64,000 nucleotides of DNA from Struthio camelus (lineage: Eukaryota > Chordata > Aves > Struthioniformes > Struthionidae). The notes beneath the pieces are model-generated. The model saw only the letters and a list, made by a program, of their open reading frames with translations. It was not told the origin of the DNA and did no database searches. The position numbers and the translations under genes were made by a program. The stretch is taken from assembly GCF_040807025.1 (NCBI RefSeq), contig NC_090982.1, positions 88,785,463-88,849,462 on the forward strand, given 5' to 3'. This document shows positions 9,120 to 52,679 of this stretch, piece after piece (within the stretch, counting starts at the first letter, position 1; the number at the start of each line of letters is the position of its first letter).

Positions 9120-10025
9120 AGGGTCACGGTGGCCCCGGGACTGGGGGGGGGGTCATTGCAGGGCTGCTGGGGTGTCGGCACAGGGCAACCTGGTACTGCT
9201 GGGACCCACTGCAGGCACCCCGGGGCTGTCCGGGGGGGCACCCAGGGCTGTCAGGGGACACCCTTGGATGTCGGGGGACATACGTGGCACCTGGGGCTGC
9301 CAGGGGGCACCCTGGGCTGTCGGGGGGGGCACCATGGGAAGCACCAGGGTTATGGGGGACGCCCAGGGATGTCAGAGGGGGCACCCTCGGATGTCGGGGG
9401 ACACCCTGAGCACCCAGGGCTCTCGGGGCGGCACCGTGAGATGCATCGGGGTTGTGGGGGGACACCCTGGGGCTGTCGGGGGGCACCCTCGGATGTCGGG
9501 GGACACCCTGGGCACCCAGGGCTGCCGGGGGCACCCTGGGCTGTCGGGGTGGGGGCACCATGGGAAGCACCAGGGTTATGGGGGACGCCCAGGGATGTCA
9601 GAGGGGGCACACTGCGATGTCGGGGGACACCCTGAGCACCCGGGGCTCTCGGGGCGGCACCGTGGGATGCATCGGGGTTGTGGGGGGACACCCTGGGGCT
9701 GTCGGGGGGCACCCTCGGATGTCGGGGGACACCCTGGGCACCCAGGGCTGCCGGGGGCACCCTGGGCTGTCGGAGTGGGGGCACCATGGGATGCACCGGG
9801 CTTGTGGGGGGACGCCCCGGGATGTCAGGGGACATCCTGGGGCTGTCAGGGGGGCACCCTCGGATGTCGGGGGCGACCCTGAGCACCCGGGGCTCTCGGG
9901 GCGGCACCGTGGGATGCACCGGGGGGGGCATCATGGGATGCCCCGGGGCTGTCGGGGAGGAGGGGGGGGCAGCCGGGGCTGTCGGGGCGGCACTATGGGA
10001 TGCCCCGGGGCTGTCGAGGGGGGGC
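9120..10025 (+). repeat. G-rich minisatellite with 226-bp higher-order repeat, upstream of ST8SIA3
   Basis: Short units of the type GGGCTGTCGGGGGGCACCCT are repeated throughout. They are organised in a larger period: the landmark ACCATGGG is at 9331, 9557 and 9783, exactly 226 bp apart each time, and the landmark GCACCGTG is at 9431 and 9657, again 226 bp apart. Copies differ by point changes and by small indels in the third unit. The plus strand is very rich in runs of three to eight G. The long open frames on both strands here are by-products of the repeat. Confidence 0.9.
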
Positions 10026-10492: not shown

Positions 10493-13400
10493 GTAAGGGC
10501 GCCCGCGCCCCTCCGCCTCGGCTCGGCCCGGCTCGGTTCGGCCCGCATCCCCCCGGCCCGGCCCGGCCCGGCCCCTCCGCCCTTTCCCTTCCCCTCTCTC
10601 CCCCGCTTGCCCCCGTTTGGCGAACGGCCGAAAGCCCCGCGAAGGCCCCGCGGCCGCTCGCCGGCCCGGGGGCCGCTGCTCGCCGCTGCCCCCACCCCTG
10701 CCCCCCCCCGGGCTCCCCCCGGCCCCCCGCGGAGGCGCCGCCGCGGCCTGCGGGGAGCGGGCGGCCCCCCCCGGGGGACCGCGGCCGTGGGAACCTGGCG
10801 GCCCCGGCGGGGCGGAAAGGCGGCGGGGGAGGGTGGGGGGGAGGCCGACATCACCCGGCTCGGCCCGGTTCGGCTCGGCACGGCCCAGCACGGCGCAACT
10901 AGGGTCGGCTCGGCAGGCCTCAGCTCGGCAAGGATAAGCTCGGCCCGGCCCGGCACGGCACGGCGCAGCCCTGCATGGCCCCGCTCGGCCCGGCTCGGCT
11001 TGGTTCTGCCCGGCCCGGCTAGGTTCGGCAGGGCTCAGCTCGGCCCGACTCAGCTCGGCATGGCCCAGTTCGATTCGGCTCGGCTCGGCGGCCCGGCCCG
11101 GCTCGGCTCGTCCCGGCCTGGCTCGGCTTGGCTCGGCCCTGCTCGGCTCGGCTCGGCTCGTCCCGGCCTGGCTCGGCTTGGCTCGGCCCGGCCCGGCTCG
11201 GCTCGGCCCGGCCTGGCTCGGCCCGGCTCGGCTCAGCTCAGCTCAGCTCGGCTCAGCTCGGCCCGGCCCGGCCCGGCTCGACCCGGCTCGGCTCGGCCCG
11301 GCTCAGCTCGGCCCGGCCCGGCTCGGCTCAGCTCGGCTTGGCTCGGCCCGGCTCGGCTCGGCTCGGCTCGGCTCGGCCCGGCTCAGCTCGGCCCGGCTCG
11401 GCCCGGCCCGGCTCAGCTCGGCCCGGCCCGGCTCGGCTCGGCTCGGCCCGGCCCGGCCCGGCCCGACTCGGCTCGGCTCAGCTCGGCCCGGCTCGGCCCG
11501 GCCCGGCCCGGCTCGGCTCGGCTCGGCTCGGCTCGGCTCGGCCCGGCCCGGCCCGGCCCGGAGCGGCGGGGAGCGGCGGGCGCTGTCCGCGGTGCTGATG
11601 CCGGCGGTCGCCGCCGGCTCGGCGGGGCGCGGACCCGGGCCCGGCTGGTAACGGGGTGCGGGTCTGCGTCTGCGTGTCTGCGGGCGTGGGTCCGCGTGTG
11701 CGCGCTCCTCCCCAGGTCCCAGTTCGCCCTGAAGTTCCTGGACCCCTCGTTTGTGCCCATTACAAACTCCCTGACCCACGAGCTGCAGGAGAAGCCCTCC
11801 AAGTGGACGTTCAACAGGACAGCGTTCGCACATCAGAGGTGAGCCCGCGGCCCGGCACCGCTCCCACTCGCTGGCTAGGCCGTCCCCCTCTCACCTTCCC
11901 TAAGGTTGTCCCTTTCCCTCCGGGGATTTAAGAAAATACAGTCAGGGACAGCTAAATACTCTGAGCTCTGAGTAATTTGCCAGCAGTGAGAGACAAAGGC
12001 TGAATCAGAGCATTTCCCAAGATGGTAACAGCTATCTTAGAAGAATTGATTATTTCAGAGCAGGACACCAAGCTGCAACACGCATTATTTTACCAAATGG
12101 CATGTGACCCAGTTTCCCAGAGTGCAAGTGAAATTGTCATTTCTTCAAGATAAATGGCTGGTTTTTTAAAACTTGAAACAAATCAAACCGTAACAGCCAT
12201 GAAATGGAGGGCAAAACACGCCCAAAATGAAACTTCCCAGCTAATAGCAATTCTGAGCAAGTGCAGTGCAGCTCTGCCTTCCCAGCTCTCACTCGGGCTG
12301 GCAGAGTGGGCAGAGAGAAGAGTTCAGGTGGGGACCATCAAGTCCAGATCCAGCTGAGATGCCCTCCTCGCACACTGCCTTCTGCCTCCTATTTGCACAT
12401 TGCACTGACTTTTCTGGTGGGTGGCAATGGAAAGTGTTTCTCTGTTCTCTGCTTTCATTTTCTCATTGCCATCCCTCATTGTTATGCCGCCTTAGAGATA
12501 TGGCAGTGGCCACCTCTTAGCATCGCTTGGTTCCTGGCACCACCATCTAACCCTTAATAAATATCTTAGTGTCACTTCACTGTTGATATTAGCTAATGCC
12601 TCAAGATCTGCCTTTGCATTTGTCTGTTAGCCATAACCCGTAATTAGGGAACCCACTGGGACTCCATTAATGCTTAGACATTGGAGGATGTGAGCTGGAA
12701 GGAAGGTTGTTTGTTTTCCATAAACAGGAGCAAATAAAGTGGTATTGGTTTTCTGATTTTATGCCCTGCTAGGGAAATTCCTGAGCAGGGTTGTTTTGTT
12801 TGTTTTTAAGTATTCCGAATAACCCTTTTAAAAATTCCAATGTCCGAATAAGACATTAAGGAATTATGTTTACATAAAGGGAGAAGTGACTGTCACTTTT
12901 TTTATCATCCAAAGCTTCTTAATGAGAGCGCACAAAATGCTTGTATTTAAGAAATCAGCTATGTTACTGTTAACACAGCTGAAGATTCTGGACTGCTTGA
13001 TTTTGCTTGGCGTACATCTTGGCAAACAGGCTGCCCATCGTTACCAAAGACCCACTGTCCAGTACCAGGAGTGAGGTGTATGACAGCAGAGAGCACCGGC
13101 AGAGAACATGTCCACTGGCCATGTTCAGCAGGAACAGAAACCTGTTTTGCACTGCTCCTTCAGAAAGGGGAGTACTGGAAGTATGTGCAGTTACACGCCT
13201 CCAATTTACAAAAAGAATTCAATATTATAATCCTGACACTATTCCGAGACACATCCTTATCTGACATCAGTCAGCACAGTTCAGCAACATCAGTAGAGCA
13301 TTAGGTGAGGAACCTGCTCCATAATTCCTATCTGTTATTATTAATTTTAAAGCCGTTCCACCACATTTCTCAGGAAACGACTTTACTACATCTAAAATTT

Positions 13401-15100
13401 TAGGCCTAGCCTGAAAGATAATGTCTCTATCATAGAAAAAGGGGAACCATAATGAAATGTTTTCTTTTCTTTTTCTGTTTTATTTTAGGCAAGAAATCCT
13501 TCAGCATGTTGATGTAATAAAAAATTTTTCTTTGACTAAGAACAGTGTTCGGATTGGACAGCTGATGCATTATGATTATTCCAGCCATAAGTATGTTTTT
13601 TCTATTAGCAATAACTTCAGATCACTGCTTCCAGATGTGTCACCAATCCTGAATAAGCATTATAACATTTGCGCCGTGGTTGGGAATAGTGGAATCCTGA
13701 CTGGAAGTCAGTGTGGACAAGAAATAGATAAATCTGATTTTGTTTTTCGTTGCAATTTTGCTCCAACTGAGGCTTTCCAAAGAGATGTTGGAAGGAAAAC
13801 CAATCTTACAACCTTCAATCCCAGCATCCTGGAGAAGTATTACAACAATCTTTTGACCATTCAGGATCGCAACAACTTTTTTTTAAGTTTAAAAAAGCTT
13901 GATGGGGCCATTCTTTGGATCCCCGCTTTTTTCTTCCACACGTCAGCAACAGTCACAAGAACACTGGTTGACTTCTTTGTTGAGCATAGAGGGCAACTAA
14001 AAGTCCAGTTGGCTTGGCCAGGAAATATAATGCAACATGTTAACAGGTGTGTGTTTTCTCTTGCAGTTAATTTGTTCAAGTATGTATCTCTGTATATAAA
14101 TACAATTGTATTTATTTTTCTATTCATGCCTAAACTGATATGCACTCTCTAACTAGTTAGCGCCTGGTACTGTTTACTTTTAGCAGAAATGCAGCTTTGT
14201 TATTGCTTCAGTCAGTAGTTCAATTATTTCTTTGCAGATGTAAATGGCATCTGTGCCTTGGTTTGATTGCTCACACACAGGGGTATATTCCACCACTGGA
14301 CTCTGCTCCTGCCAGTGCTTCCCCAAAGACAGAAGGAGCGCAGAGGAGTTGAATGAGATTCTGCATAAGCAAAACATCATCTGTGGAAGAATTTTGCTTG
14401 ATGCAGATCTCCTCAGCTAGCAAGTAGGGATGCTAACAGGCATAACTGCAGAGTGGCCCAAAAAAGGCTGTAATAAATCATACAAGGATAATGTTGTCAA
14501 CCTCATTAGCAAATGCACATGTGACTAGTGTTTAATGAATTTACTTTCTTGGGTAAGGCACTACTTTTCCTGGTTAAAAAAAAAAAAAGACAAAAACACA
14601 GTCTGAAGGGGGGCCACAAGAGGGAATATTGATCAGAGTGTCAAAAAGAATATTCTGCACTCCTATTTATTACAGACAGACCTAAGCAGCAATCCTTACC
14701 TTATTCAGATCATCAGCCTTGCGTATGGATGGGCTCCACGCGGTAATTCTTTCTCTTACAGCAAACCTGTGGGTATTGTTTCTACCCTAAACTAACATGC
14801 CTGTATTATTTTCACAGATACTGGAAAAACAAGCATTTGTCACCCAAGCGCCTGAGCACAGGTATTCTCATGTACACCCTTGCTTCTGCGATATGTGAAG
14901 AGATTCACTTGTATGGATTCTGGCCGTTCGGATTCGATCCCAACACCCGGGAAGATCTCCCATACCATTACTATGATAAGAAAGGAACAAAGTTTACGAC
15001 CAAGTGGCAGGAGTCCCACCAGCTGCCTGCAGAGTTCCAGCTGCTCTACAGGATGCACGGTGAAGGACTGGCCAAACTCACCTTGTCGCATTGTGCCTAA
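10314..15100 (+). CDS. ST8SIA3: ST8SIA3, alpha-2,8-sialyltransferase 8C; complete, exons join(10314..10492,11716..11838,13489..14046,14818..15100)
   Basis: This Golgi type II membrane enzyme adds alpha-2,8-linked sialic acid to sialylated glycoproteins and glycolipids, mainly in brain (family knowledge). The four exons join in phase to 380 codons, the length of the mammalian protein. Visible features: a short cytosolic N-terminus and signal anchor (about residues 9-31); sequons N93-R-T, N113-F-S and N206-L-T; sialylmotif L from about 159 (YNICAVVGNSG) to 204; sialylmotif S at about 299-321 (LSTGILMYTLA); the motif VS pair H354 and E359. Cys162, Cys176, Cys313 and Cys379 are present, the two disulfide pairs of the family. 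All donors are GT and acceptors AG, and every junction splits an Arg codon after its second base. Introns are 1223, 1650 and 771 bp. Identity is clear from near-unbroken agreement with the known family sequence. Confidence 0.98.
10855..11562 (+). repeat. Pentanucleotide array (GGCTC/GGCCC)n in ST8SIA3 intron 1
   Basis: About 700 bp of five-base units, mainly GGCTC and GGCCC with GGCAC, GGTTC and AGCTC variants, fill over half of intron 1; a smaller patch is at 10518-10580. Being in steps of five, it is open in several frames and produces long Ala/Arg/Leu/Gly/Ser chance frames. Stretches of (GGCCC)n put GGGCC repeats on the minus strand, able in principle to form G-quadruplexes. Confidence 0.95.
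11579..11599 (-). promoter_or_regulatory. RE1/NRSE (REST/NRSF) motif in ST8SIA3 intron 1
   Basis: On the minus strand the left half reads ATCAGCACC and the right half GGACAGCGCC, joined by the two-base spacer GC. That agrees with the canonical 21-bp RE1 at 19 of 21 positions; the differences are the first base and one spacer base, both tolerant positions. It lies 17 bp past the pentamer array and 116 bp before exon 2. REST silences neuronal genes outside neurons, and ST8SIA3 is a brain-restricted gene in mammals. Binding here is inferred. Confidence 0.75.
11716..11838 (+). CDS. ST8SIA3: ST8SIA3 coding exon 2 (stem region)
   Basis: It encodes the rest of Arg60 to the first two bases of Arg101, starting SQFALKFLDPSF and including the sequon N93-R-T. 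The acceptor is CCCCAG/G and the donor AG/GTGAGC. The exon is 123 bp and keeps the phase of its neighbours. Confidence 0.97.
13489..14046 (+). CDS. ST8SIA3: ST8SIA3 coding exon 3 (sialylmotif L)
   Basis: This 558-bp exon encodes residues 101-287, including sialylmotif L, the N113 and N206 sequons and Cys162 and Cys176. It follows a T-rich acceptor (TTTTAG/G) and ends AACAG/GTGTGT. The open frame reads on for about 35 codons into the intron, which is not coding. Confidence 0.97.
14818..15100 (+). CDS. ST8SIA3: ST8SIA3 coding exon 4 (sialylmotifs S and VS, stop)
   Basis: It encodes residues 287-380 and the TAA stop at 15098-15100. It contains sialylmotif S with Cys313, the HYYD block, the catalytic-type H354 with E359, and Cys379 near the C-terminus. 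The acceptor is TTTCACAG/A. Confidence 0.97.
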
Positions 15101-25000: not shown

Positions 25001-25945
25001 TCTGTCTTTCTGCTTTTCCTTCCCTCTCTCAAAAAAACCGTCAGCATAAGGAGCTGCACAGGCCTTGCTTCCTCACCCGTGTGTCACTTGGCATCAGGAC
25101 ACCTTCCTGCAAGACATGGGCTTGAACTGCGTTGTGAAGGAAGTGGGCAAAACTCAGGTGTGTCCAATCCTATGTGAGTGCTCTTACGTACCGTGCTATT
25201 AATAAGGAAAGCTCTTCCTCCAACCGCCTTTAAAAGAGCAGTGGCAGCAACTGTGAGACATTTTGTCAAGAGCTACTAAGCCCTGAGATGTGCTCTGGGA
25301 ACTCCTAAGAGATGGTGCCTCCTGGGGCAGATAAGTAGGAGGATGCAAATCAGAGGAGCGCAGCCATGAGGCAGGCCCGGAGCCGCTCCACCATGTCAAG
25401 ACTCGGGTGTTTCTGAGTGCAGCGCTTACGGGATGCTGCAAGCGCTGGCGATCACGGGCATCAGGAGCCTTTGGCAGCACGCAGCAGCTGATTAGACGGC
25501 TTAAGGGTCTACATTTTGGACTTCAAGGCTTGTGTTCTATGTATTAGTGTGTGAGCTTTTCTGTGGATTTGGCCTTAAGCAAAAGGTTTTACTGGAAAAC
25601 TTAATCAGAAGAGTTGCCAAAGGTCTTGTTTATTGCTCCCTATATTTCATTATGTACTGCAATATGCTTAGTATGATGGATCAGATTCTGCACCATTGTG
25701 AAATATTTTGAGTTACAAAGCATGTAAATCAGTGCAGAACTTGGCTCAGGGTTTTTGTTCATTAAAGTGAATTACATTACCAAGAACATTTTATAATCTA
25801 CTTCCATTACCTACCATATACTAGTAAAAGGTATAGATTGCTCTGCTTTAGCATGTAAGTTTTATCTTTTGTTCCAATTTATATTATATCATAGCAATCC
25901 CTGGCATTGAGGAAGCCACCTCTGTGTCCCACACCATCTCATCGG
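22013..25945. other. Intergenic DNA between ST8SIA3 and the CR1 at 26 kb
   Basis: Apart from the tentative old CR1 at 22.8-23.1 kb, no gene or RNA is recognised. The frame at 23745-24197 (plus, 150 codons, Cys-rich) resembles no family I know and lacks promoter or splice context. Confidence 0.45.
22790..23060 (-). mobile_element. Very diverged CR1 fragment, antisense (tentative)
   Basis: Scattered blocks read like the complement of an internal CR1 ORF2 region: CATTTGTCCTTA, GGCTCCTCCCAGCT, GGAAATATTGAATAGTACCTG and GACCCCTGCAGGCCC, in the order found in antisense CR1 copies. Many substitutions and indels separate them. It may belong to the same insertion as the fragment at 21948-22012. Confidence 0.4.
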
Positions 25946-25947
25946 CC

Positions 25948-26589
25948 ATATCTTGCCCTTGTGGCCAAGAAGGCCAATGGGATCCTGGGCTGCATTAGGC
26001 AGAGTGTTGCCAGCAGGTCGAGGGAGGTGATCCTGCCCCTCTACTCAGCCCTGGGGAGGCCTCCCCTGGAGTACTGTGTCCACTTCTGGGCTCCCCAGGA
26101 CAAGAGAGACATGGCGCTACTGGAGAGGGTCCAGCAGAGGGCTACCAAGATGATTAGAGGGCTGGAGCACCTCTGCTGTGAAGAAAGACTGCAAGAGCTG
26201 GGCCTGTTCAGCCTGGAGAAGAGAAGATTGAGAGGGGATCTCATCAACGTGTACAAGTATCTGAAGGGGGAGTGTCAAGAGGATGAGGCCAGCCTCTTCT
26301 CCGTGGTGCCCAGCAACAGGACAAGAGGCAATGGGCACAAACTGAACCACAGGAAGTTCCATCTGAACCTGAGAAAAAACTTCTTCACTGTGAGGGTGAC
26401 AGAGCATTGGCACAGGTTACCCAGAGAGGTAGTGGAGTCTCCTTCGCTGGAGATATTCAAAACCCGTCTGGATGTGATCCTGGGCAATTTGCTCTAGAGG
26501 ACCCTGCTTGAGCAGGGAGGTTGGACTAGATGATCTCCAGAGGTCCCATCCAACCTCCAACCTAAACGATTCTGTGATTCTGTGATTCA
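25948..26589 (+). mobile_element. CR1 LINE, 5'-truncated, well preserved, with intact ORF2 tail
   Basis: A 5'-truncated copy keeps the last part of ORF2 and the whole 3' end. The frame is open from about 25945 to the TAG at 26495-26497 and reads [70 protein letters not shown] and VILGNLL, the conserved C-terminal region of the CR1 replicase. The 3' end has the GGTTGGACTAGATGATCTCC block and the tail GATTCTGTGATTCTGTGATTC. It lacks the endonuclease and RT, so it cannot move by itself. The unbroken frame suggests a young insertion. Confidence 0.95.
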
Positions 26590-31382: not shown

Positions 31383-32105
31383 CACAGAATCACAGAATCA
31401 CAGAATGGCCAAGGTTGGCAGGGACCTCTGGAGATCATCTAGTCCAACCTCCCTGCTCCAGCAGGGTCCTCTAGAGCACATTGCCCAGGATCACATCCAG
31501 ACGGGTTGTGAACATCTCCAGCCAAGGAGACTCCACTACCTCTCTGGGCAACCTGTGCCAATGCTCTGTCACCCTCACAGTGAAGAAGTTTTTTCTCAGG
31601 TTCAGATGGAACTTCCTGTGGTTCAGTTTCTGCCCGTTGCCTCTTGTCCTATTGCTGGGCACCACGGAGAAGAGACTGGCCCCATCCTCTTGACACTCCC
31701 CCTTCAGATACTTGTACACATTGATCCCCTCTCAGTCTTCTCTTCTCCAGGCTGAACAGGCCCAGCTCCCTCCGCCTTTCTTCATAGCAGAGATGCTCCA
31801 GTCCTCTCATCATCTTGGTAGCCCTCCGCTGGACTCTCTCCAGTAGTGCCATGTCTCTCTTGTCCTGGGGAGCCCAGAAGTGGACACAGTACTCCAGGGG
31901 AGGCCTCCCCAGGGCTGAGCGGAGGGGCAGGATCACCTCCCTCGACCTGCTGGCAACACTCTGCCTAATGCAGCCCAGGATCCCATTGGCCTTCTTGGCC
32001 ACAAGGGCACACTGCTGGATCATGGTCAACTTGTTGTCCACCAGCACTCCCAGGTCCTTCTCGGCAGAGCTGCTTTCCAGCAGGTCAATCCCCAGCAGGT
32101 CCTGT
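31383..32105 (-). mobile_element. CR1 LINE, 5'-truncated, antisense, ORF2 tail with 5-nt deletion
   Basis: The left edge is the 3' tail in complement (CACAGAATCACAGAATCACA). The copy is very close to the one at 25948-26589 and extends further 5', to the block reading [20 protein letters not shown] in the minus frame. The ORF2 tail is in two overlapping minus frames, 32047 down to 31649 and 31719 down to 31471. Compared with the other copy, GGGGATCTCATCAACGTG has become GGGGATCAATGTG, a loss of five bases between two ATC triplets that explains the frameshift. Otherwise little decayed, so also young. Confidence 0.95.
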
Positions 32106-34861: not shown

Positions 34862-35148
34862 TTGCACACGCCTTACACCGCGCGCCGCACACCACGCACC
34901 TCACACCATGCACCACACACCACCCACCACGCGCCACCGCACACCGTGCACCTCACACCGTGCACCGCACACCGTGCACTGTGCACCACACACTGCACAC
35001 CGTGCACCGCACACCATGCACCGTACACCATGCGCCGCACACCACGCACCTCACACCATGCACCACACACCGTGCACCGCACACCGTGCACTGTGCACCG
35101 CTGCACGCCATGCACCTCGCACCGTGCACCGCACACTGTACCACTCTC
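34862..35148. repeat. CACCGTGCAC-type minisatellite with about 150-bp larger period
   Basis: Units built from CACCGTGCAC, CACCATGCAC and CGCACACC are repeated throughout. The landmark GCCGCACACCACGCACCTCA starts at 34884 and again at 35034, 150 bp apart, and the DNA after it matches except for an internal deletion in the second copy. The unit contains the palindrome GTGCAC. Chance His/Thr/Pro frames arise on the plus strand and Cys/Val frames on the minus strand. Confidence 0.9.
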
Positions 35149-35667: not shown

Positions 35668-36180
35668 GGCTCCTGGGGGTGTGCGTGTGAGAGTGAGTGC
35701 AGCCTGGGTGTGCAGGTGCACGCGTGTGTGCACGCAGGTGTCTGTGTCTGTGCATGTGCAAGCACGAGTGTGTGCGAGTCTGGGTGTGCATGTGCACACA
35801 TGTGTGCATGTGCGTGTGAGTCTGTGCATGTGCAAGCATGAGTGTATGCGAGTGTGAGGGTGAGTTTACGTGCATGTGAGTGTGAGCGTGTGTGAGTCTA
35901 GGTGTGCACGTGAGCATGGACATCCGCATGCATCTGTGAGCGTGCGCAAGCGTGTGCAAGTCTGGGTGTGCATGTGAGCACGTGTGTGCAAGTGAGCGTG
36001 CAAGTGCCTGCGAGGCTGGGTGTGCAGGGCATGCATGTGAGTGGTGTGCAAGTCTGGGTGTGCAGGGGCTGTGAGTGTGCGCATTAGTGTAACGTGCGTG
36101 TACGCGTGTACAGGGTGGGGACGCTGCGCGCACGTGCGAGTGTGCGCAGGCCGGGGTGTGCATGCACACCTGCGTGTGTG
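35668..36180 (+). repeat. GTGTGCATGTGAG minisatellite, purine-pyrimidine alternating
   Basis: About 500 bp of imperfect GTGTGC, GTGAGC and GCATGT repeats carry a recurring GTCTGGGTGTGCATGTG motif (near 35777, 35952 and 36046, with variants near 35889 and 36009). Long alternation of purine and pyrimidine makes it a candidate for Z-DNA. Confidence 0.85.
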
Positions 36181-37681: not shown

Positions 37682-38822
37682 ATGAAGACGGCCGGCGGCG
37701 CCTACCGCTGCCTGCCCGGGGCGCCGGGGGCCTGCGCCATGAACCCCGAGATGCCGCTGGAGCCGCTGGGCAGCCTGCACGGCGCCGGCCCCGAGGCGGA
37801 GCTGATGGGCAGCCCCAGCCCGCACCACGGCGGCCGCTCCGCGCCCCTGCGCGCCCCGCCGCCGCCGCCGCAGGAGCTGGCGCCGGCCCCCGGGCGGCCG
37901 GCCATGGTGCCCAGCATGGCCTCGCTGCTGGACGGCGCCGCCGAGTACCGGCCCGAGCTCTCCATCCCGCTGCACCACGCCATGGCCATGCCCTGCGACT
38001 CCTCGCCGCCCGGCATGGGCATGAGCGGCACCTACACCACGCTGACGCCGCTCCAGCCCCTGCCGCCCATCTCCACCGTCTCCGACAAGTTCCACCACCC
38101 GCACCACCACCCGCACGCCCACCACCACCACCACCACCACCACCAGCGCCTCGCCGGCAACGTCAGCGGCAGCTTCACCCTCATGCGCGACGAGCGGGGG
38201 CTGCCCGCCATGAACAACCTCTACGGGCCCTACAAGGAGATGCCGGGCATGGGCCAGAGCCTCTCCCCGCTGGCCGCCGCGCCGCTGGGCAACGGCCTGG
38301 GCCCCATCCACAACGCCCAGCAGGGCCTCCACGGCTACGGGCCGCCCGGCCACGACAAGATGCTCAGCCCCAACTTCGAGGCCCACAGCGCCATGCTGGC
38401 CCGGGGGGACCAGCACCTCTCCCGGGGGCTGGGGACGCCCCCGGCCGCCGTCATGTCCCACCTCAACGGCGTGCACCACCCCGCGCACCCGGGCCACACG
38501 CCGTCGCACGGGCCCGGGCTGCCCGCCGGCCGGGAGCGGCCGCCCTCCTCCTCGGGCTCCCAGGTGAGCAGCTCCGGGCAGCTGGAGGAGATCAACACCA
38601 AAGAAGTGGCACAAAGGATCACGGCCGAACTGAAGCGCTACAGCATCCCCCAGGCGATCTTCGCCCAGAGGGTGCTGTGTCGTTCTCAGGGGACCCTTTC
38701 GGACTTACTAAGGAACCCTAAGCCTTGGAGTAAACTGAAATCCGGCAGGGAGACCTTCAGGAGGATGTGGAAGTGGCTGCAGGAGCCCGAGTTCCAGAGG
38801 ATGTCGGCCTTGAGACTCGCCG
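37682..38822 (+). CDS. ONECUT2: ONECUT2 exon 1: N-terminal region and complete CUT domain (gene continues beyond window)
   Basis: ONECUT2 is a nuclear CUT-homeodomain transcription factor of neural, liver, pancreas and retina development that binds ATCAAT-type sites (family knowledge). This exon encodes 380 codons plus one base. It starts MKTAGGAYRCL, close to the mammalian N-terminus. Visible parts: Pro/Ala-rich N-terminus; the STVSDKFHHPH block with a His run (about residues 138-154); the conserved LMRDERGLPAMNNLY and GHDKMLSPNFEAH blocks; and the whole CUT domain, about 300-380 (EEINTKEVAQRITAELKRYS ... RMSALRLA). The donor GCCG/GTAAGT at 38823 is strong. The homeodomain and C-terminus are on exon 2, absent here. 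The long N-terminal Gly runs of mammals are missing. The His run and conserved blocks favour ONECUT2 over ONECUT1 and ONECUT3. Confidence 0.97.
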
Positions 38823-39189
38823 GTAAGTCCCAGCCCCCAGCGGCAGCGGGCCCGGGCGACCTCGGCCCGCTGCCCCTCGCCCCCGCCGAGGCGCTTCCCG
38901 GCGGGGCCGGCGCCGTCGGGCCTGGCGCGGCCTCCCCGGGGCGCTGAGCCGCCTGGCCGGCGGTGCGGGTCCGGCGGCGGGGGCAGAACAATAGTTTGGG
39001 GCTGGTTTATCCCCCCCGTCCTCCCCCTGCCGGCTTCACCCCCCCCCCACCCCGCGCCGGCCCCCCGCTGTCATCGCTGCGCTCGCTCTTGCTGGGAGCC
39101 GTCGGAGTTTGTTTCCCAGCTGCGCGCAGCCCAGCGCGGGAGGCGACCGCGGCCCGGGGCTGAGCGGAGGGGGGCGCTTTCCCCCCCGA

Positions 39190-41160: not shown

Positions 41161-44100
41161 GGTGAGTCAGTGGATTGCTCTCCTTTTGGCAAGGTACTGA
41201 GTGGTGACGGGCAGTCGGGTGCAGAGGGTCTCTGCGTGCTGGGCAGCTCCAGCACGGGGTGGGAAGGGGGCAGAGCAGCAGGAAGAGAAGCCATGAATTA
41301 TTGATGGCCGTAATCCCTGCCCGACCCAGTACGGGAGATGCTATGGGTTAAACAAGCACCAGCCTGGAGCCTCCAAACGCCTCGCCGAGGCGGCTGGGGA
41401 TTTTTCAAGGTGAAAGAGGCTTTGCACAGCCGCCCTGCTCTGCTGGTTTTCACAGCAGCCCGGGGGCTGCTTGGGTTTGCAGTCCCCGCCAGGACCCTGG
41501 TTAGCCGGGCCGGGGGAAAGTAAGGCTTAAAGCACAGGGATGCGGAGGTGGTTTTGCTCCCGCGTCTTGCAAATTCCTGCTGTCCTCTCCAACACGCCGG
41601 GTCGAGAGGGGACGGATATCCAATCCCTTTACATTTTCAGCCTAATGCGGGTCTCGAGGTTTGTCCACAGCAAGAGCTCTTGGTAGTGAAAAAAAGAAAG
41701 AGAAGAAGGTAGCAATAGCGGCTGATCTGCAGGGAGCGAGCTTTCGATCAGTGCCGTGTACGGCCTGTGTATTAATCACGTTATGTTGCCTCTGATGCAA
41801 GAGACCACGAGTTAATTGTTTTCACCTTTGCGATAGCGATCGCTTGTGGTCAGCTCCCCCCCCCACCCCGCCGCCATCACACACCCCTTTAACCCCTGCC
41901 TCCCCCCTAGAAACCCCAAACCCAACGATTTCGCATTGCAGCGGCAGCGCAGGGCGGCGCGATGCGCGGGGCTCGGAGCCGCTCCGCGCCTCTGCGCGCA
42001 CCGGCGGCCTCCCCGTCGCGGGAAGCGCCAGCGCCGCCGGCGCCCCTTCCCCGCCCTCGGGCGGCGAGGGCGGCTCGTCCCCCCGACGGCGCCCCGGCAG
42101 CCCGGCCCGTCGGGCCGCCCTTCCTCCGGCGCCTCCCGCGCAGCGGGGTGGGCAGCGCTCGCAGGCCGCGGAGCAGCAGCCCCGGCCCGGCCCCGCCGCC
42201 TTCGGCCCCTTTCGCTTTCATCGCAGCCGCTCGAAGCACGCGGTTATGTCACTTTCTCAAACAAACGTGTACGTGGAGGGAAATCGATGCAGATAATGTT
42301 GAGAAGATTAAAAGAGCATTAATGCTGGCAACAAGAACATAAACGTGTGCACCCAGTTTTCATTGATCTGGAACCCGATCCGGCTTATTTCCAGTAATGC
42401 TGCTGGTGCTCTTCCTTCCCAGCACCTCGCCCCCCCCTCCCCTCCCGCGCCGGCTCCTTGCCCCCGGCAGGGCGCTGCGGGCTGGGCGCCGCTTGCGGCA
42501 CCCGGAGCCCCCGGGGCGGCCCGGGCCGCCGGCAGCAGCCGCCTCCGTCGGGGCCTTCCCCGCGGAGCTGTGCGGCGCCCCGGGCCACCCGTCTTCGTGT
42601 TCCCTGAGACGCTTCGCAAGGCTGGGGGGAAGGGGGGGGCGTTGCTTCTTAAACTTCCGTAGGCTTAGGAAGGGTGCTGAAATATTCCTTCGCAGTTTTA
42701 ATCCGGTTTTGTTTTGGGCTGCAAGCGCGTAGGTGGGATCTCCGGTTTTTCGCGCACACCTGCTTCTGGATCGCTGCTCTGCGGTTCCTTCCCGGCTGCG
42801 TGTCAGCTAAAACCGGCCTAACTCCATGACGGTCAGCGCCGGGTTTTCTGGTTGCTTCCCGCCTTGGTTTGTCTGCAGAGGTGCAAGCGGGCGCAGAGAA
42901 ATGCCGTTTGCTTTGCTATTTCGCTCTTTCGAAAACCGAAAGCTCCCCTCCCCGGTGCCCGAGCCCTCGCTGCCGGCCCAAGGCGCTCCCGGGGGGGCGC
43001 GCAGCGGGGCCGCCACCCTCCCGCGGGGCCGCCGGGCAGCGCTCGCTCCCCTCGCCCGGGTGATCTGCAGCACTAACGGGGGGAAATATTCCCTGCTGGG
43101 CCTTCCTGTGCAACCTATTTAATTACTGCAGATCAATCACACGGGCATCCCGTCTTGTCGGCGCTGTGGCCTAGGCGTTTTCTTTGCTGCGTAGCCCAGG
43201 AGCCAGGAAATAGCAGGGGACAGTCCTGCCGGCCGCTTGCAGTCCTCGCCCGGCTGGGCATTGATCCTCCCAGGGAGCGGGGAACCCGCCTGCCGTCGCG
43301 GGGCGGGGGGAGTGGGAAAGACCTTTGTAAATTACCGTCCCTTCGGGAAATTGATTTTTTATTACCACGTGTGAATATGCAGCTTCATGGCCTCGATGTT
43401 TCCCTTCCCTTTATTCTCCTACTTAAGCCCCTCTGAGCAAAAGGAATGAACGGAAAGCGCTGCCAGATTTCTGAAAACCATTTGCCCCTGTGCTCTTGCT
43501 GTAAGTTTTTCTCAAACGAAATGAAAATATATTGTCCTTTGAGAGAAAGCCTTTCTCTCCCCGTGGGAACTGTAGAAGCGGGATATGCTCATTATTTATT
43601 TTTCAAAGGACTGCCAAGTCCGTTGATCATCTTCAGCCATTTCTGTACTAGAATTACCGACATCGCTTAGAGCGATTTTGTGCAGTATCGGACATAAAAC
43701 TGTAAGCAGTACTTGGCAGCTCCTATGGAGGTGTAAGAAGCTCATGCAGTTCAAATTTCAGATATTATCTTAGTTTTAGCCACCTACAGGAACACCGGCA
43801 GTGCATTCTATACACACAATAGTAGATCACATCCTATTAAATTTTACACAGATTTTTAAAAATCCAAAACATGTCCTTATGTTAACAAATGCATTCTTTG
43901 CCAAATGCTTTAAGGCTACAAGGACAAAATAGCACCCTTTGGCATAACTGTGCACATTAAAACGTCTTCAGAAACGTTTAGAGTGAAAGATAGAACATGC
44001 ATTCCAATGGGTGCATGGTGGGCTAAAGCAGCGATGGTGAGCAAGGAGAAGGAGGAACCGCTAACAGGTGGAAGGATCTCCGTTAGCCATACGACCCTGT

Positions 44101-46194
44101 ACAGCACATCGTAACAAAGGACCCCCATCTGCAGCAAGAGAAACCTCTGAGAATCTTCAACAAAAATATCTGGCTTTGTTAAAGAGTCCAACTATGCAGA
44201 TGGAAACAGAAAGATTTTTATTTCTGGAGAGCTGCTATCAATTTTGGATAAACATTCTACTGAAAAATAAAAAAATAAAAAACTCCCCAGTCTTTGAATT
44301 CTCACTATACCTTGGCTATCGCTTCGCCACCCTTAGATCTCACCCTTGAAATCACGTAAACGTCCTCTTTCTGCGGCATGGAAGATGCGACATGAATCTG
44401 CGTGTGGTGACCACAGGGCATACAGAAGAAATGGCATGAAACCAAATGGGGAGGTCACATAAATAACATTTTCTTATCTTTAACGAGGAGGGAGTGTGCG
44501 GCTACTGTCTCCTTCCCCTTTGGAGACTGTGCTGTCGGCATGCCGGGGATCGGCAAGACCCAGGCCAGCAAGGCCCAAGGGAGCAGCCTGCTCGGGCGGC
44601 TGCTCCTGCCGTGGCTGGGCTGCCTTGCAGAGGGCTGGTGCCCGCGGAGGGCGAGCAGGGCCGCAACACAGATCCAGTGCCCACGCCGGCTCACCAATCT
44701 GCATCTGGAGAGGAGTGCTAGCCCAGTGGAAGGAGGAACCCTTTATTGTTTTATGCAGGGCCAGGGAAACCTTTCACATTGATCCTATTGATCCAATCCT
44801 CCCCATTACGGAAACCGCATAGTTAAAGACCCCCGCTCAATAGCTTTACCCTTCATGCTTGCAATACTCTTTTAAGTATTAAGTGGTCTCAGCTGAAGTA
44901 GCTGGATGGCTTTAAACCTGAGATTCAAACAAAAGGTGAGGCAGAGAAAGACTTTGCTCCAGGAACCTTCACTGAATCAGTGGTAGGTGTTTGGGATGAG
45001 GGCGGACAAAGTCAAGGGGTAAAATATGTCCCCCATGGTATGCTCAGCTCTCTCCGTAAAAGTTCATTTCCTGATTGCCCGCCATAGGTTTCCAGCATTG
45101 CTGGGCCTGGGCCCACACCTGCACAGTCCTCACAGCTCTTCTGGCAGAGCAGGCCACAAGGAGTAAAACAGTGTTAGCAAGGTTGTCCTGTACAGTCGGG
45201 CGAGCTGGGGACAGCTCTGAGAGCCAGCAGGACAGTGAGGCAGGTGGGACTGCCATTCCCCAAGGGGCTGTGCTGGCTCGGGGACTGCCAGAGGCTCTGG
45301 CAGCAGCAATCTGCCCACTGCTCCCCCCACTCTGTGACCTTCTAACTGCATGAACCGCAAATGCGGAAACGTTTCTATAGAATCTTTATTTGCTCTGGCC
45401 CCAGTAGGGCAGTCCCTAAATTTCTGCCAGGATGAAAAATATTAATGATCCCTAGGTGAGTCAATGTATTTATCTGCTCAGTGAGTTCAAAGGGCAGAGT
45501 TCAACTGTGGTTCAGGTTAATTGAACACGAAACCATGTCCTAATGCCTGCGTTGCCTGCAAAGTACTAAACGTCAGAATATTATCAGTTGGAAGGTGCAC
45601 CAAATCCATGGTAAGCAAACACAGGAAGAATGCAATTAAAATAACTTTCGTGCTGTAATCTTTTGTAAGTTACCGAGCTCAACTGGGTTCTGAAACTCTG
45701 AGTAAAGACCCCTGTGTTGGAAGAAGGGTTTTCTCACCCAATAATACAGTTCTCACTGAATAATACAGGTCTCTCTGACCTGTAGAGCAGCTGCTGCAGT
45801 TTAGGCTGAGAATCAGCCTTAGAGTAATATGCTCCTATCAGAGCAGAGCAAAACATTTGTTTACACAATCAGGTTTTGCCTCACACTCGTTTAACTCCAT
45901 CTAAATTATTTACTGCTTTGAAAAGTCGAAGATTACAACTGGCCCTACTGTACAAACAATGACAGTTCGAAAGCAAGGCAAAAGACTGTCCAGCTAATCC
46001 TATGCTTTGCAGATATCTTACTATTTTTCTGGGCTGATCAGCAAAGCACTTGCATTGCTCGTTTACATTTCCTGATTGCTGAATCACGTTATTGATGATT
46101 AAACATTTTTATACCAAAACACCATCAATGATTCATTTGTGCAAAACATGCATACTGACCTCTTTGTACTTGTATCCCTTTGGTCGCTGCGCAT

Positions 46195-46215
46195 TTCAGC
46201 AGCACTGCCTGGGCC
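46195..46215 (+). promoter_or_regulatory. Weak RE1-like sequence
   Basis: TTCAGCAGCAC followed by TGCCTGGGCC matches the RE1 consensus at about 16 of 21 positions; the left half is good and the right half poor. It lies 1 kb before the strong RE1 array. Possibly chance. Confidence 0.2.
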
Positions 46216-47187
46216 AGTGTGGCTCCTATTTGGAGCTTGCCCAGTGGAGGGGTGGGAGGGCCCCGCCGTCCCCCAGCCCCGCTGCCCCCGGCTGCGCTGG
46301 CCGCGAGTGCCCCCTGCCGCCGGCTGCCCACGGGCTGCGCCGGGGCACAGCTGCACGGCCCTACTGCGCGGGGCTGCAGAACATCCCCGGGACGGGAGGT
46401 AACCACAGCCCTCAGGGGAGATGCGTCCAGCCCAGGCCCTGGAAGCCAGGTCTGGTTTAACAGGTGCCTTACTCGAAGCTGCATCACGGGTTCCCGTGTG
46501 GAAATCTTGGCCATGTTCCTAATATTTGTTTGTTGCAAGTGCTAGAAAAATGCATACTGTCCTATGCATTCATATGTTCTGCTTCTTACACCACCCCCTC
46601 ACCTTAGCTTGATCTTCCTCCTGCAGTGTTTTACAGGCTACGGTTAACATCTGGCGTGCGTGGTCGGCTCCCTTCTTCATGCCCCCAGGCGGCATAGGGG
46701 GTCATGGGAGGGGGCTCACTGTGGCTCTTGCAGGGCACGGGCACCTGGCACAGAGGGCCTGGCCTGAGCATGGAGACAGTCGCAGTGGGAGAGGGTTCCT
46801 CCAGTGCAGACAAGTTCTTCTCCTTCTTGTGGAGGACGATGCACCTGCTCTAGGGCAGTGCTGATCTATGCCATACTGCGCTGCTTCATAGGCTGCTGTG
46901 CGCTCCCTGCTGCCTTGTAAACCCCTTTGCCTCAGCGCACTGGGGAATAGTTCAGCTGTGGCCTCTGTGTGAAAAGTGCAGTAGGAAGTTCAGCAGGATG
47001 CTTTTCCTGCTGAAAAGAAGAGAATTAGTGATAGGCAGAGCGATGAGCGCTGCTGAAGCCGATGCATTTAGAAAGGCCGACGTCTGTGGAGGTAAAGGAG
47101 AGCGGGTGCTCGGCAGAGCCCGGCCTCCGAAGGCCCTGCCGCGGCCAGCAGGGCAACCCGGTGGGACGCGCCGCCGCCGTGCGGATC

Positions 47188-47208
47188 ATCAGCACCACGG
47201 ACAGCGCC
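47188..47208 (+). promoter_or_regulatory. RE1/NRSE (REST site) 1 of 3
   Basis: Left half ATCAGCACC, spacer AC, right half GGACAGCGCC. It matches the canonical 21-bp RE1 at 20 of 21 positions, differing only at the first base. Confidence 0.85.
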
Positions 47209-47221
47209 GCCGCCTCGGGTC

Positions 47222-47242
47222 TTCAGCACCACGGACAGCGCC
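47222..47242 (+). promoter_or_regulatory. RE1/NRSE (REST site) 2 of 3, perfect consensus
   Basis: Left half TTCAGCACC, spacer AC, right half GGACAGCGCC. It is identical to the classical RE1/NRSE at all 21 positions with the canonical spacing. Confidence 0.9.
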
Positions 47243-47255
47243 GCCGCCTCGGGTC

Positions 47256-47276
47256 TTCAGCAGCACGGACAGCGCC
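47256..47276 (+). promoter_or_regulatory. RE1/NRSE (REST site) 3 of 3
   Basis: Left half TTCAGCAGC, spacer AC, right half GGACAGCGCC. There is one mismatch, C to G at position 8 of 21. Confidence 0.8.
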
Positions 47277-49689
47277 ACCGCGAAGGGCTGGGGCTGAGCA
47301 GGAGCGCAGCCTCTGTCACCAGCAGACACTTAATTAGCACCGTCAGCGCTAGGAAGAGTCCTTTGGCTGAGATTTGTTTATACTATAGATAATCGCTGAG
47401 GAAGTCCTAGTTTACAGGTGGTTTGCTATCATCTATGTGGCCTCAGTCTGTTAGTATTCTAGCTACATTTTCTTTTAGTAGATTTTGGAGACTATTTTGT
47501 CAGCCATAAATACAGCTGAGAATTAAGGCATAATAACATCTACATTAAGTACATTAAATATATATAAAATTATTTCTTAAGGTTGAACAAAATATGCAGG
47601 AATCTTTAGATTCTTTGAAAGGTGCTTAGTGGCTTAAAATATTAGTACTCTCTTCAGATATAGATTAGTGGTTATATTTGAACTATCCATGCAGTAAATT
47701 GTGGTGCTATGTGATAAATCATATTTCTCATGTATCAGCTTTCTAAAGTAATATCTGTTCTGATCTTTTTGCTCCACCCTGTTCCTGAAGACGCTGAAGA
47801 CGTTTCTGCTTTGCATACATTCAAATACCATTTTTGCTAAGCAACCTATTTTTATCAGTTTCTTGATTGTCTGATAGAGATAAATCTGACCCCACTTGTT
47901 ATTAAATGCATCCCTATTTTTCTTCCTCTCCTTCTTTTTCAAGAACCAGTCCATCCCATTCTTTTTCTAATCTCTCATCATTTGTATGGAGATTTCCAAA
48001 ATTCAAATGCTCCTCTGCATTTGAAAACTGACAGAATTGTATTTGTGACAATGAACTTGTAAAAGAGAGAACATTTTTGCCAAAAGGATTATTTTCCAAA
48101 AGCTCAGATCCTCTTTCTTCCCATGTTCTTTACAGGGGCATTTTGACTCAAGCTTTGCACTTCTTTTTTCTGCACCATGCTCCCAGTTGATCATCCTTTA
48201 TACCTTTTCTTGTTTTAAGCATAAAATTTTGTACTAGATGTTTCTGCCATCCACCAATTGCAAGTTGTTTTTTCATCCCTTCCAGCTAGGCTTTACTCAG
48301 CTGTAGCGAGTTTCTTGCCAGTATCCCGACACATCTATGCTCAATCCCCAAGCCCTAAACATAGCAGACTCCTTGCATCCGAGGAGCTCCCATGTGGCTG
48401 CCTTCAGAATGGAAACAGGGCTCTGCAGGCATATGGAGGATTAATCAAATATGGAAACAGGGCTGAAATGGACCTTGAGCCATCACCTGTCCTGACAGCC
48501 TGACCCATTCTTTTGTGATGGAGATTTCACAGACAGTCTCTTCCAGAGCTTAGCTATCCTTACAGATATGCAACAGTCTTTAATGACTAACTTTAATCTC
48601 CATTTTTGTCATTTAAATCCTTTATTTCTCATCTTATCCCCACTAGAAAGAGCAAAAAATTCATATTCTTTTTTTTTTCTGACAGCAATCTGTTTGTATT
48701 TAGGACGGTTATCATGTCTTCTGTCTTCTCTAGACAAAACTCCACTCTACTTTGGAGATGAATATTCAGAGGAAACATTATGTCTCAGCAGGACAGACAA
48801 TACCTTTTTCCAAGGTAAAAGATTTTTGCATCCAGTCCCGATCTTGCAGACTTTTGCATAGAAGACTCACTGCTTTGTAGAGGATTTTTTATGCAGAAAT
48901 CATACAAATTAGACTAATCTCAAATGGGCACAGGGATAAGATCAACAAGACAATTCACTCATTGTAGGTAGAAATGCAATCAGAAAAGAAAATGGAGTGT
49001 TTGGGGTTTGTTTGGGTTTCTTTTGAACTATAAAATCAAACTACTGCGTTATGAAAAAAGGGGGCTCAAAATACTGGTAAATGCTCCACAGAGGAACTAT
49101 TAGGCAAGCAATAGAGGCTGGCAGTTTCCCAAAACACACATTGTCTCTGGGACCAAAATATGTCTAAGTGAGCAGGGAACATATGTATAAACAGCGGTGA
49201 TTTTTCAGCAGATCTCATCTTGTCATAATGGAGATCTAAAAATGAAGGCCTGTACTGAGGCATTAAGCTTTGGCAAGCAGCACATAGCTGAAGAGGATAA
49301 AGGAAGAATATAAGGAAGTCTTCCTCACAGAAACCATTTCTCTTCCTCTCCCACACATCATCTTCACTGCTGTCCTCCTCCGTGCATATCATGCCACCTT
49401 GTTTGCACACCTGGTGAAAAGACAGCCGCTTTCCTCAGTAGCCAGTGCAGCTATACGAGCGTCCTTCCTCCAGCCACCATGGCAAGGACTGCTGGCACGA
49501 TGGTACTGCATCAGTCCTCATTGCAGGCTACCAACATGAAAAGGCTCACACTGGCTTTCATGGTTCCTGGGGATGAGATGTGAGCTTCCAGAGCTTTTCT
49601 TCAGTCCTTAGGGCATCTTCAATGCCAAATTTTTCCTCCATCATGCCCAGATACTGGCAGAGCGCAGCATCTTGGTTCTCCTCTCACAT

Positions 49690-49941
49690 CTAGCCCTGAG
49701 CACTCACCTTCAAAGAGATGTTGCGAGGGGCCATGGGGCGCACAGACCCAACGCAGGTACCACACTCGGTTTGTGCGTAGCTTGTATCCACTAGAGTAGT
49801 ACGAACACTACCTGACACAACTGCTGTCACCCACACAACCCGATGAAGAGATGTCCCCTTCTCCCATCCACCTGCACAGCGGTAGCACATACACTGAGGA
49901 CATGGGTGACCCGCAGCCTCTTCTGCCTGAAGGGAGTTCAC
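49690..49941 (-). pseudogene. Possible retroelement relic: CCHC-like and aspartic-protease-like piece (tentative)
   Basis: An 83-codon minus frame contains CPQCMCYRCAGGW, followed in another frame by GHL ... C, which could be a decayed zinc knuckle. About 30 residues on it reads VVSGSVRTTLVDTSYAQT, similar to the LVDTG-x-x-[QR]T active-site region of gypsy-type proteases, with Ser where the catalytic motif has Gly. Order and spacing fit a gag-protease junction. No flanking LTR, capsid or RT was found. It could be chance; an independent test is needed to accept it. Confidence 0.3.
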
Positions 49942-52679
49942 TCACGTTGCTCACCTTCACACATCAACAGAAACAGCTCTGAGAGCAGCAAGGGCAACGC
50001 AGAGCTGGCTTTTCCAGACAAGTGTCAGCAGTTTTGCTCCTTTCTTCTCTGGTTCTTCATAATTGCGTCCTATCAGTAATAACTGCAAATAAATAATTAT
50101 TTCCTGCTTTTTATTGTAAGACAGGATATCTGAAAGCAAAGTGGTTCTGGAGGCATAGAGCAAGAAGTCAGGAGGTCCATACTTTCCCTGTAGCTTGCAA
50201 GTAGGACCCAGGGGGCTCAGCTCAAGACTCTGACTTGTAAGTACAAGGCGGTAGGAGGCAACTGCAGCCTGCGTGTGTGCACAGTGCACGTACTGAAGGG
50301 AAAGCAGCTTGAAGTAATTAGTAGAAAATGCTAAAGACAAGGTATTTCAAATTCAAATCCTTCCTAAGATTTGAGACTCTCAGTCAGTGCTTACTCACCT
50401 CCTCCTCTATTAAATTCCCTCTCCTGTCTTGGAAAAGATACCTACATACTTTTATTTCTGCAAGTGGAGAAAGTCACTGCTGTGTTGTCGTACTTGAGAG
50501 GATGTGATGGTGCAACACTCTTGCAGCTGCAACTACAACAGGCAGAGCTCTCAGCGGGGGGAAAGTGCAGTGTCAGTTCTGTGCTCTGACTAAGGGAATA
50601 TAAATCCACCTTACAGAAAAGTGTTTTAATTCGGCTGGAAACTATTTGGCCATTTAAGAAGGGGAGTCTTCAGAACAAGAGGAAACATAAATCTTTTAAG
50701 TGTTACAAGTGAAGGAGTCACTGAGTGTCGTTCCAAGCGTTCAACGTTTCGCTGTTACTGGGTGGAGTACCTGAGCTGTGCTGTGTTTTACCCAGTGTTT
50801 CTCCCCTGCAAAGTGCCCAAGCAGTGGCAGAAAATAACCTAGCTTAAATCCCCTCTTTAGGGACCCACCTCAGCCATGGGCTGCCTTATCCTTCTAGATT
50901 TCTCCCTGGTCCATGTTAACCCTCTTCCCTTCCCACGGGACATGCCCCAGTGACTGCACAGTTATGCAAAAGATGGGTTCTCCCACCACCCTTGTTTTAA
51001 AAGAAAGACTGAACAATGGAAATGTCTTGGAAAAAAGGTTTCAGATGTACCCTTCTTTCTTCGGTGATTCTAGCGACTGACTGAAGCAGTTTCTGCTCAG
51101 CAAAGGTGGGACTCAGGGACCTGCCCTGTGTTGCTAAGCCTGGGGCTTAACTTTTAGGCTCTCTGGGGCTTGGTGTTGCCATGCCAAAGGTCCCTGTGGG
51201 ATTTTGAGCATTTACTCAGGCACCTTTAATATGAAAATAATTGTTGTCCACAGGTTTTAGACACCTCTGGATTCTGGCAACAGCGAACAAGGCTTTTAGG
51301 CAAGCTAAATTTTATCTTTAGGCTGTTAAGTTCTCACATGGGTATGTTCCTCAGCTGCTCCTCACCTCAGCTTCTCCGTGTATCTAGGGATATGATGGAA
51401 AGACTAACGCTTCATAGTCTTGCTTTGCTGCTAATTGTGAAGTGCTCTGGGACTGGGACAAGCACACCAAAAAAAGCAATGATAGATTTTAGGGTTTTTT
51501 TGCTGGGTGCAAAAATATTTCTTGTCATTTGGTGTTGTAAGTGCAGCAGGACACATATGAATGGATACAGTGAGGTCCCTCCCCATTTGGATATACTCCA
51601 CATGCCAGTAAAAAGAAAAAGCATAAAAGGGGGGTGACCGGTCTCTCCTCTGCTCCTCCTCCTTCTGGGGCTGGTTCTGTACCAGCTCAGTTATCTGACA
51701 AGTGGCTGATGATAGTGATAAATGTTCAAATCCTAATTCAGTCAGAGCTCCTTGACTGGACTGAGGGATGGCTTTCATAACTAATAGTAAATACTTTTAT
51801 CCTCAGAAGCGTGGAACTTGTGGTGGGATTTGTCCAGGCCTGTGGGCACAGTCTGGCTAAAGCGGATTCTGCCGTGCCTTTGACGTAAGTCGGTCCTGCT
51901 GGTGTAGCAGAATGGCACGTCAGAGTGGCCCACTGGGTGACACCACTTGTCATAGCCGGGGGGGGGATACATTTAAATGCTGTCGCTTTTGCCTGTTTAT
52001 GTCAGCTTGTGTTTCTCAAAGCAGTTTGCACTTCAAAATGGCACAAGTATATTTTGGCTTGTCAACAAGGATTATACAATTATGCAAGGTGCATGTGTCT
52101 GTCTGCCTCTGTGGCCTCCCCGCCCCTCTCCTCACAATGTCATTTGGACCCTGTGGTCAACATGAGCCTAATTTCACACTGGGCTGGAGGCCTCAAAGAT
52201 ATCTAAGGGGGGTGTTTCTACCCGTTTTTGTGGAAACAAGAAGCTGTTTAGAGAAATAAGGCCTCATAAGTGCCTGAGCTGAAAAAAAGCTATGACATAA
52301 GTTTGCACCATATTAGATGATGTTTGCACCTGGAAAGAGAGCTTATAAATGTCCCAGCTACTGAAAAAGGTAAATTAAGAACATATAAACTGAAACACAT
52401 AAACCTGAACACCTAAACAGAAGTCTGTCGGAAATCAGGGCTGTTCATTCTGCAGCCCACAGAACTGCTTGCTTGTGAAGAGGGCTGAATAATTAGCGTT
52501 GGAGGACGCCCTCTGCCTAGGCCGCAGAAAAAGAAACTCTGGGGTTGCTCTGCAGAAACCGTTTCAGTCTATGGTTAAAGCTTAAGACCGCTTGGTGGCA
52601 AGGAGTACATTTAAACTGTGTTGTATGCTCACCAAGCCTCCACTCATTCTTGCCCTGGAGTGCAATAAATTGGCCCTAT

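Follow-up and report, generated by a model that had tools for sequence, protein, structure and literature searches.

A 34-bp tandem array of canonical RE1/NRSE motifs, a predicted locally duplicated REST silencer, in the presumed first intron of an ONECUT2-type gene of Struthio camelus

Tandem REST sites in other systems and the array of this locus

Outside nerve cells, REST keeps nerve-cell genes off. It reads its sites (RE1/NRSE) with zinc fingers 3–8 and in one orientation, the core CAGCAC of the left half having been assigned to zinc fingers 7–8 (PMC8096226). For human, mouse and frog, 80–90% of the putative target genes of REST were reported to carry just one motif within 100 kb (PMC4430910). 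Tandem NRSEs are already known as well. Tandem canonical RE1s occur within 1 kb of Snap25 and Celsr3, and probes carrying the tandem NRSEs of CELSR3 and of PCDH-gamma-a6/a7 gave two shifted bands, which the authors of that work read as one REST per NRSE (PMC8096226). A potential REST site in a variable repeat is likewise already known, from MIR137, where REST occupancy was found over a 15-bp variable tandem repeat and the repeat genotype affected reporter activity (PMC4393679). There is also the engineered 2xNRSE cassette, in which tandem copies of the canonical 21-mer TTCAGCACCACGGACAGCGCC, as printed for those zebrafish transgenes, bias driver expression to the nervous system (PMC3529185). 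This cassette is artificial and in one construct lies 18 bp from the minimal promoter; when the tandem NRSE was placed on the UAS reporters only, expression was not restricted (PMC3529185).

The locus described here was found in a window of 64,000 nucleotides from Struthio camelus (NC_090982.1, positions 88,785,463 to 88,849,462), this being the whole stretch of DNA that was analysed. It carries three RE1/NRSE copies (A, B and C). The sequence of copy B is exactly that of the canonical RE1/NRSE, and copy A is a full match to the 17-mer consensus; what differs here is that the RE1 recurs in the unit of a tandem array with a 34-bp period. Several REST sites lie near one another, as they do at CELSR3, PCDH-gamma-a6/a7 and SNAP25; however, the CELSR3 set consists of four half-sites with 11-bp gaps (PMC8096226), unlike the full 21-mers of the array, and the available portions of the papers on CELSR3, PCDH-gamma and SNAP25 mention no short periodic repeat as the origin of their NRSEs. 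At MIR137 the potential REST site belongs to a 15-bp repeat that lies at an internal promoter (PMC4393679), whereas the array, which is presumably intronic, consists of 34-bp units with one full canonical 21-mer apiece. A search of the open-access literature (titles and abstract starts) returned, among the matches listed, no report of this array, nor of a periodic minisatellite with a full canonical RE1 as its unit. A preliminary description of this locus had called a homotypic array of this kind unusual. This can be kept in so far as several good sites from one local repeat seem to be uncommon, but not in the sense that tandem NRSEs are without precedent, since those of CELSR3, SNAP25 and PCDH-gamma are documented.

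Position, quality and chance expectation of the RE1 copies

Comparison of the 64-kb window with the canonical NRSE identified three 21-bp matches, all on the + strand and spaced by exactly 34 bp. Each was scored with a PWM built from the 14 distinct predicted NRSEs near human microRNA genes (PMC1794552, Table 1; 16 rows less two duplicates, each trimmed of its 22nd base), the scores of which are not on the FIMO scale. Copy A, ATCAGCACCACGGACAGCGCC, at 47188–47208 has one mismatch to the canonical NRSE and a score of 30.93; copy B, TTCAGCACCACGGACAGCGCC, at 47222–47242 has none, matching it at 21/21 positions with the top score in the window (32.43); and copy C, TTCAGCAGCACGGACAGCGCC, at 47256–47276 has one mismatch, C8 to G, and a score of 26.6, which may be too kind as the pseudocount limits the penalty at position 8. 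Two full RE1s (A and B) and a third, probably weakened one (C) are present on the same strand with 13-bp linkers. Coordinates and counts agree exactly with the preliminary description, which had reported three REST motifs in the same orientation, 34 bp apart, one of them perfect and two with a single mismatch.

The motifs form part of a tandem array at 47164–47281 (+) in the output of Tandem Repeats Finder (period 34, 91% matches, score 183). The 34-bp unit proposed earlier is therefore retained, while the earlier number of 2.8 copies becomes 3.4 because a 5′ partial copy at 47164–47187, which aligns to the unit, is included. Self-alignment of 47164–47213 with 47233–47281 gave 84% across 51 columns. 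With its 34-bp unit, 3.4 copies and 91% matches, the array has the character of a minisatellite, namely a head-to-tail repeat with a unit of 10–100 bp. A lone RE1 left half-site, ATTAGCACC, occurs at 47333–47341 (+), 56 bp 3′ of copy C. A hidden fourth full RE1 in the array was considered and rejected: 47164–47187 lacks a left half-site, and 47333–47341 has no right half matching the search pattern nearby.

The three copies are not of equal quality. The sole mismatch of copy A is at position 1, which is an N in the 17-mer consensus (NTYAGMRCCNNRGMSAG, as printed in PMC4430910). Copies A and B match this consensus with no mismatches and copy C with one, thus only C falls short of a strict match. 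In A and B the left core CAGCAC and the right half GGACAG are found at the canonical gap, but not in C, where the left core reads CAGCAG; the right half is intact in A, B and C alike. The change in copy C affects the last base of the left-half core (positions 3–8), and position 8 is a C in 14/14 of the distinct predicted sites (PMC1794552, Table 1). At the noncanonical HS5-1 site, triple-base substitutions in CAGCAC nearly abolish REST binding, the single change of C8 to G lying outside that set (PMC8096226). Copy C is probably weakened rather than dead, because it outscores 12/14 of the sites of the PWM source table when these are scored by leave-one-out. What had been described as three full-length motifs are therefore genuine canonical RE1s, but they are not equivalent copies, C8 of the core having been lost in C.

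Matches to the canonical NRSE with at most three mismatches number four in the window (A, B, C and a further RE1 at 11579–11599), while shuffling that preserved the dinucleotides (100 replicates) produced 0.01 matches on average and one at most, with 0/100 reaching four. These four RE1s score from 26.6 to 32.4 on the PWM, the next best position of the 64 kb (both strands) scoring 12.13. A simulated first-order Markov sequence of 2 Mb (both strands; composition drawn from 47081–47300, array included) contained no window that scored as high as the weakest of the RE1 copies. By uniform expectation, a 21-mer with at most one mismatch would occur 1.9e-6 times per 64 kb and 0.03 times per 1.1 Gb. 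For the 17-mer consensus alone the corresponding figures are 0.03 per 64 kb and approximately 715 in 1.5 Gb (the genome size that we assumed), a number similar to the 742 sites that Xenopus tropicalis has been reported to have (PMC4430910); therefore the degenerate 17-mer is by itself weak evidence, near chance genome-wide, and the near-perfect 21-mer alone carries the argument.

Within the window, the 17-mer consensus gave three matches with no mismatches (A, B and 11579–11599), two with one mismatch (copy C and 38928–38948 on the − strand) and 20 with two mismatches, 47342–47362 among them. The match at 38928–38948 (−) lies about 0.1 kb past the exon 1 donor of the ONECUT2-type gene described below, and probably arises by chance in GC-rich sequence. 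This match and the two-mismatch set were rejected as chance matches, being outside the 12 best PWM positions save for 45674 (12.13) and 23755 (8.94).

Two further readings were weighed. In the first, the motifs are without function, the minisatellite either resembling RE1 by chance or representing a decayed former RE1. We regard this as very improbable: the shuffles and the Markov simulation make chance resemblance very unlikely, decay would hardly leave a copy with 21/21 matches, and the gene context together with the strong neighbouring RE1 speak otherwise. In the second, the copy number has been inflated by an assembly error, a suspicion to which the single difference in 34 bases between A and B lends some colour. 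However, each copy is at least one base off its neighbour, and C more than that, while an array of 118 bp is shorter than an ordinary read, which should make miscounting unlikely; such an artefact appears extremely improbable.

Origin and genomic surroundings of the array

Copies A and B, with their linkers, are identical at 33/34 positions (motif 20/21, linker 13/13). Between B and C the motif agrees at 20/21 positions and the following bases at 4/5, after which the array ends. As the A–B linker is as conserved as the motif, the likeness of A and B points to recent duplication and not to selection for three sites. Long selection on the motif alone would leave the linker more diverged, and with 13/13 linker bases shared there is no sign of it; nothing shows that three copies were selected. 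Judged by its sequence, the array is a short minisatellite from local tandem duplication, an origin that had been suggested earlier and is supported by the 34-bp unit, the 33/34 identity of A and B and the 5′ partial copy. At a substitution rate of 2e-9 per site per year, one difference in 34 bases corresponds to an age of 0.19–41 Myr, a range too wide to date the duplication.

This mode of origin bears on the possibility that only one RE1 is functional, slippage having copied a GC-rich stretch that happened to hold it, so that the extra copies are neutral and change nothing. The conservation of the A–B linker (13/13) alongside the motif (20/21) is what such neutral duplicates would give, as is the core change in copy C. 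Tandem arrays with a period of 15–80 also make up 1,702/64,000 bases of the window, so finding an RE1 in one of them by chance is not extreme. Set against this, two of the copies are still essentially perfect, and from 38823 on, arrays of this period with at least 2.8 copies amount to 118/25,178 bases, which is the RE1 array alone. On balance we give neutral duplication of a single working site a substantial chance, somewhat short of even.

Other origins of the array were considered and rejected. A coding or structured RNA origin is not in keeping with a period of 34 bp, a number not divisible by three, and a search of 45000–50000 against Rfam returned nothing at gathering thresholds. A transposon origin was rejected as blastn self-comparison of 46600–47700 against the window (E up to 0.01), which misses families absent elsewhere in the window, gave no dispersed copies: apart from itself, the region aligned only to the array and to the RE1 motif of 11573–11600. 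A viral origin was rejected since viral contigs contained 0 exact matches to a 39-base stretch of the array.

The array lies in a CpG-preserved patch at 47000–47399 (GC 0.60–0.76). The three 200-bp windows that span it have a CpG o/e of 0.93–0.97, compared with 0 to 0.54 in the rest of 46400–47999, and the CpG-rich patch of the preliminary description is thus real. A GC of at least 0.6 combined with a CpG o/e of at least 0.9 was found in 9/236 windows of 40201–64000, and three of those nine are in the patch. The patch fits a regulatory element that is unmethylated in the germline, although GC-biased conversion within the repeat could be an alternative source of it. In embryonic stem cells, REST sites are reported to be generally hypomethylated (PMC4499139). 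A second CpG-rich patch is present in the presumed intron 1 at 41801–43100 (GC 0.667 in 42001–43000) and is possibly another regulatory element.

Upstream of the array is the coding part of an ONECUT2-type exon 1, an open frame at 37682–38822 (+) possessing a CUT domain (PF02376, E 6.2e-34) and followed by the donor GTAAGT at 38823. The distance from this donor to 47188 is 8,365 bp, in agreement with the 8.4 kb given previously. The best PDB sequence matches of the CUT exon are to One cut domain family member 2 (8t11 and 8t0f, 164.2 bits); since HNF6 (ONECUT1) gives 163.3 bits, the CUT domain alone hardly separates the ONECUT paralogues and does not decide between them. Exon 1 nevertheless possesses a CUT domain of ONECUT-type sequence, as is required for ONECUT2, and we also take the N-terminal protein sequence of this exon to resemble ONECUT2 and the sialyltransferase gene upstream of it to fit ST8SIA3–ONECUT2 synteny. 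A crude scan of the 64-kb window, using motif strings, found no homeodomain exon, which may lie past 64000; intron 1 would therefore be longer than 25 kb if the usual two-exon structure holds. Accordingly, of the earlier placement in ONECUT2 intron 1, the ONECUT2-type gene is supported by PF02376 and the PDB matches, but the intron placement is presumed, the homeodomain exon not having been found in the window. Short-unit arrays are found upstream of the ONECUT2-type exon 1 at 34885–35136 and 35691–35897 (periods 7, 14, 21 and 22, 38, 74).

The only RE1 in the window that scores like the array copies is the single site ATCAGCACCGCGGACAGCGCC at 11579–11599 on the − strand (PWM 29.98). It occurs in intron 1 of a sialyltransferase gene (exon limits set by eye), the neighbour of the ONECUT2-type gene, which we take to be ST8SIA3 and in which PF00777 is found at 13457–14152, downstream of the RE1. 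The site lies between a CGGCT array, from which it is separated by a gap of 17 bp, and exon 2, and its first 19 bases are those of the predicted mir-132/212 RE1 (PMC1794552). The presence of two strong RE1 loci approximately 36 kb apart in neighbouring genes lends support to a REST reading of the array.

Several other repeats were observed in this part of the window. The CGGCT pentanucleotide array, also in intron 1 of the sialyltransferase gene, extends over 706 bp at 10856–11561 (141.6 copies, 76% matches), and upstream of exon 1 of the same gene, at 9232–9828, there is a G-rich minisatellite built of 2.6 copies (92%) of a 226-bp unit. Two open frames with a long stretch in common, at 25907–26497 (+) and 31649–32047 (−), look to us like CR1 LINE fragments; Pfam gave no match for either.

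A predicted REST silencer and what the extra copies may add

Given that copy B is canonical at 21/21 positions and that copy A is off only at a free position, we consider it likely that the array is a working REST/NRSF silencer of the ONECUT2-type gene, copied locally by duplication of the minisatellite type. It may be able to hold two REST molecules, perhaps three. ONECUT2 is assumed here to be the target, with 8.4 kb lying between the array and the donor of exon 1. In the literature, Onecut2 is listed by one review among the targets activated on REST depletion (PMC5323410), and another states that ONECUT2 and REST are inversely correlated in prostate cancer (PMC9879360). ONECUT2 was also up in a REST-knockout HEK-293 line, but it appears there in a structural-variant gene table, thus this result is confounded.

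Under the silencer reading, REST would, where it is abundant (non-neural cells and early progenitors), occupy A and B through zinc fingers 3–8 and in one orientation, and copy C more weakly. Linkers of 13 bp should allow A and B to be occupied simultaneously. Once bound, REST would bring in SIN3A and CoREST/HDAC complexes and hold ONECUT2 silent, and the loss of REST in neural or endocrine differentiation would release it. Recruitment of HDAC complexes and of G9a by REST via cofactors that include CoREST and SIN3A has been described, and in reporters a REST motif strength above a threshold (FIMO, 20.86) accompanies silencing (PMC9903721). The correlation of motif score with REST occupancy is weak (r 0.178; PMC2687797).

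The neutral-duplicate reading given above and a cooperative one are both nested in the silencer reading, the sole difference being the contribution that each ascribes to the extra copies. In the cooperative reading, three adjacent REST complexes would make silencing steeper and switch-like, tuned by copy number. The same orientation and the regular 34-bp spacing, with a 13-bp linker that should allow one REST per site, are compatible with this, and at MIR137 reporter activity did vary with repeat genotype (PMC4393679). However, 34 bp corresponds to 3.24 helical turns, so that each site is turned by about 86 degrees relative to the next, and C by about 171 relative to A, with no common face, and copy C carries a changed core base. 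Furthermore, overexpression of RE-EX1 cut the activity of the 4-copy MIR137 repeat 1.2-fold and that of the 12-copy repeat 1.4-fold, which is no strong dose effect of copy number (PMC4393679), and the term 'cooperativ' is absent from the paper on tandem NRSEs (PMC8096226). For these reasons we think a cooperative, dosage-sensitive array unlikely. Should the extra copies of the silencer be active, we would expect additive redundancy, with more REST bound and a mutation in a single copy tolerated, over a cooperative switch; it is at least as likely that they do nothing.

ONECUT2 is a transcription factor gene that helps to decide neural and endocrine fate. With near-identical RE1s at a fixed spacing and orientation, the array makes it possible to ask directly whether silencing by REST is additive, saturating or cooperative in the number of sites. 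If its copy number varies, it would represent a silencer that gains strength by simple repeat slippage. It is a long shot, though a conceivable one, that this is an RE1 minisatellite specific to one lineage, with a copy number that differs among individuals or species and determines the tightness with which REST silences ONECUT2. If that were true, slippage in a variable RE1 minisatellite would be a source of heritable change in a neural/endocrine fate switch.
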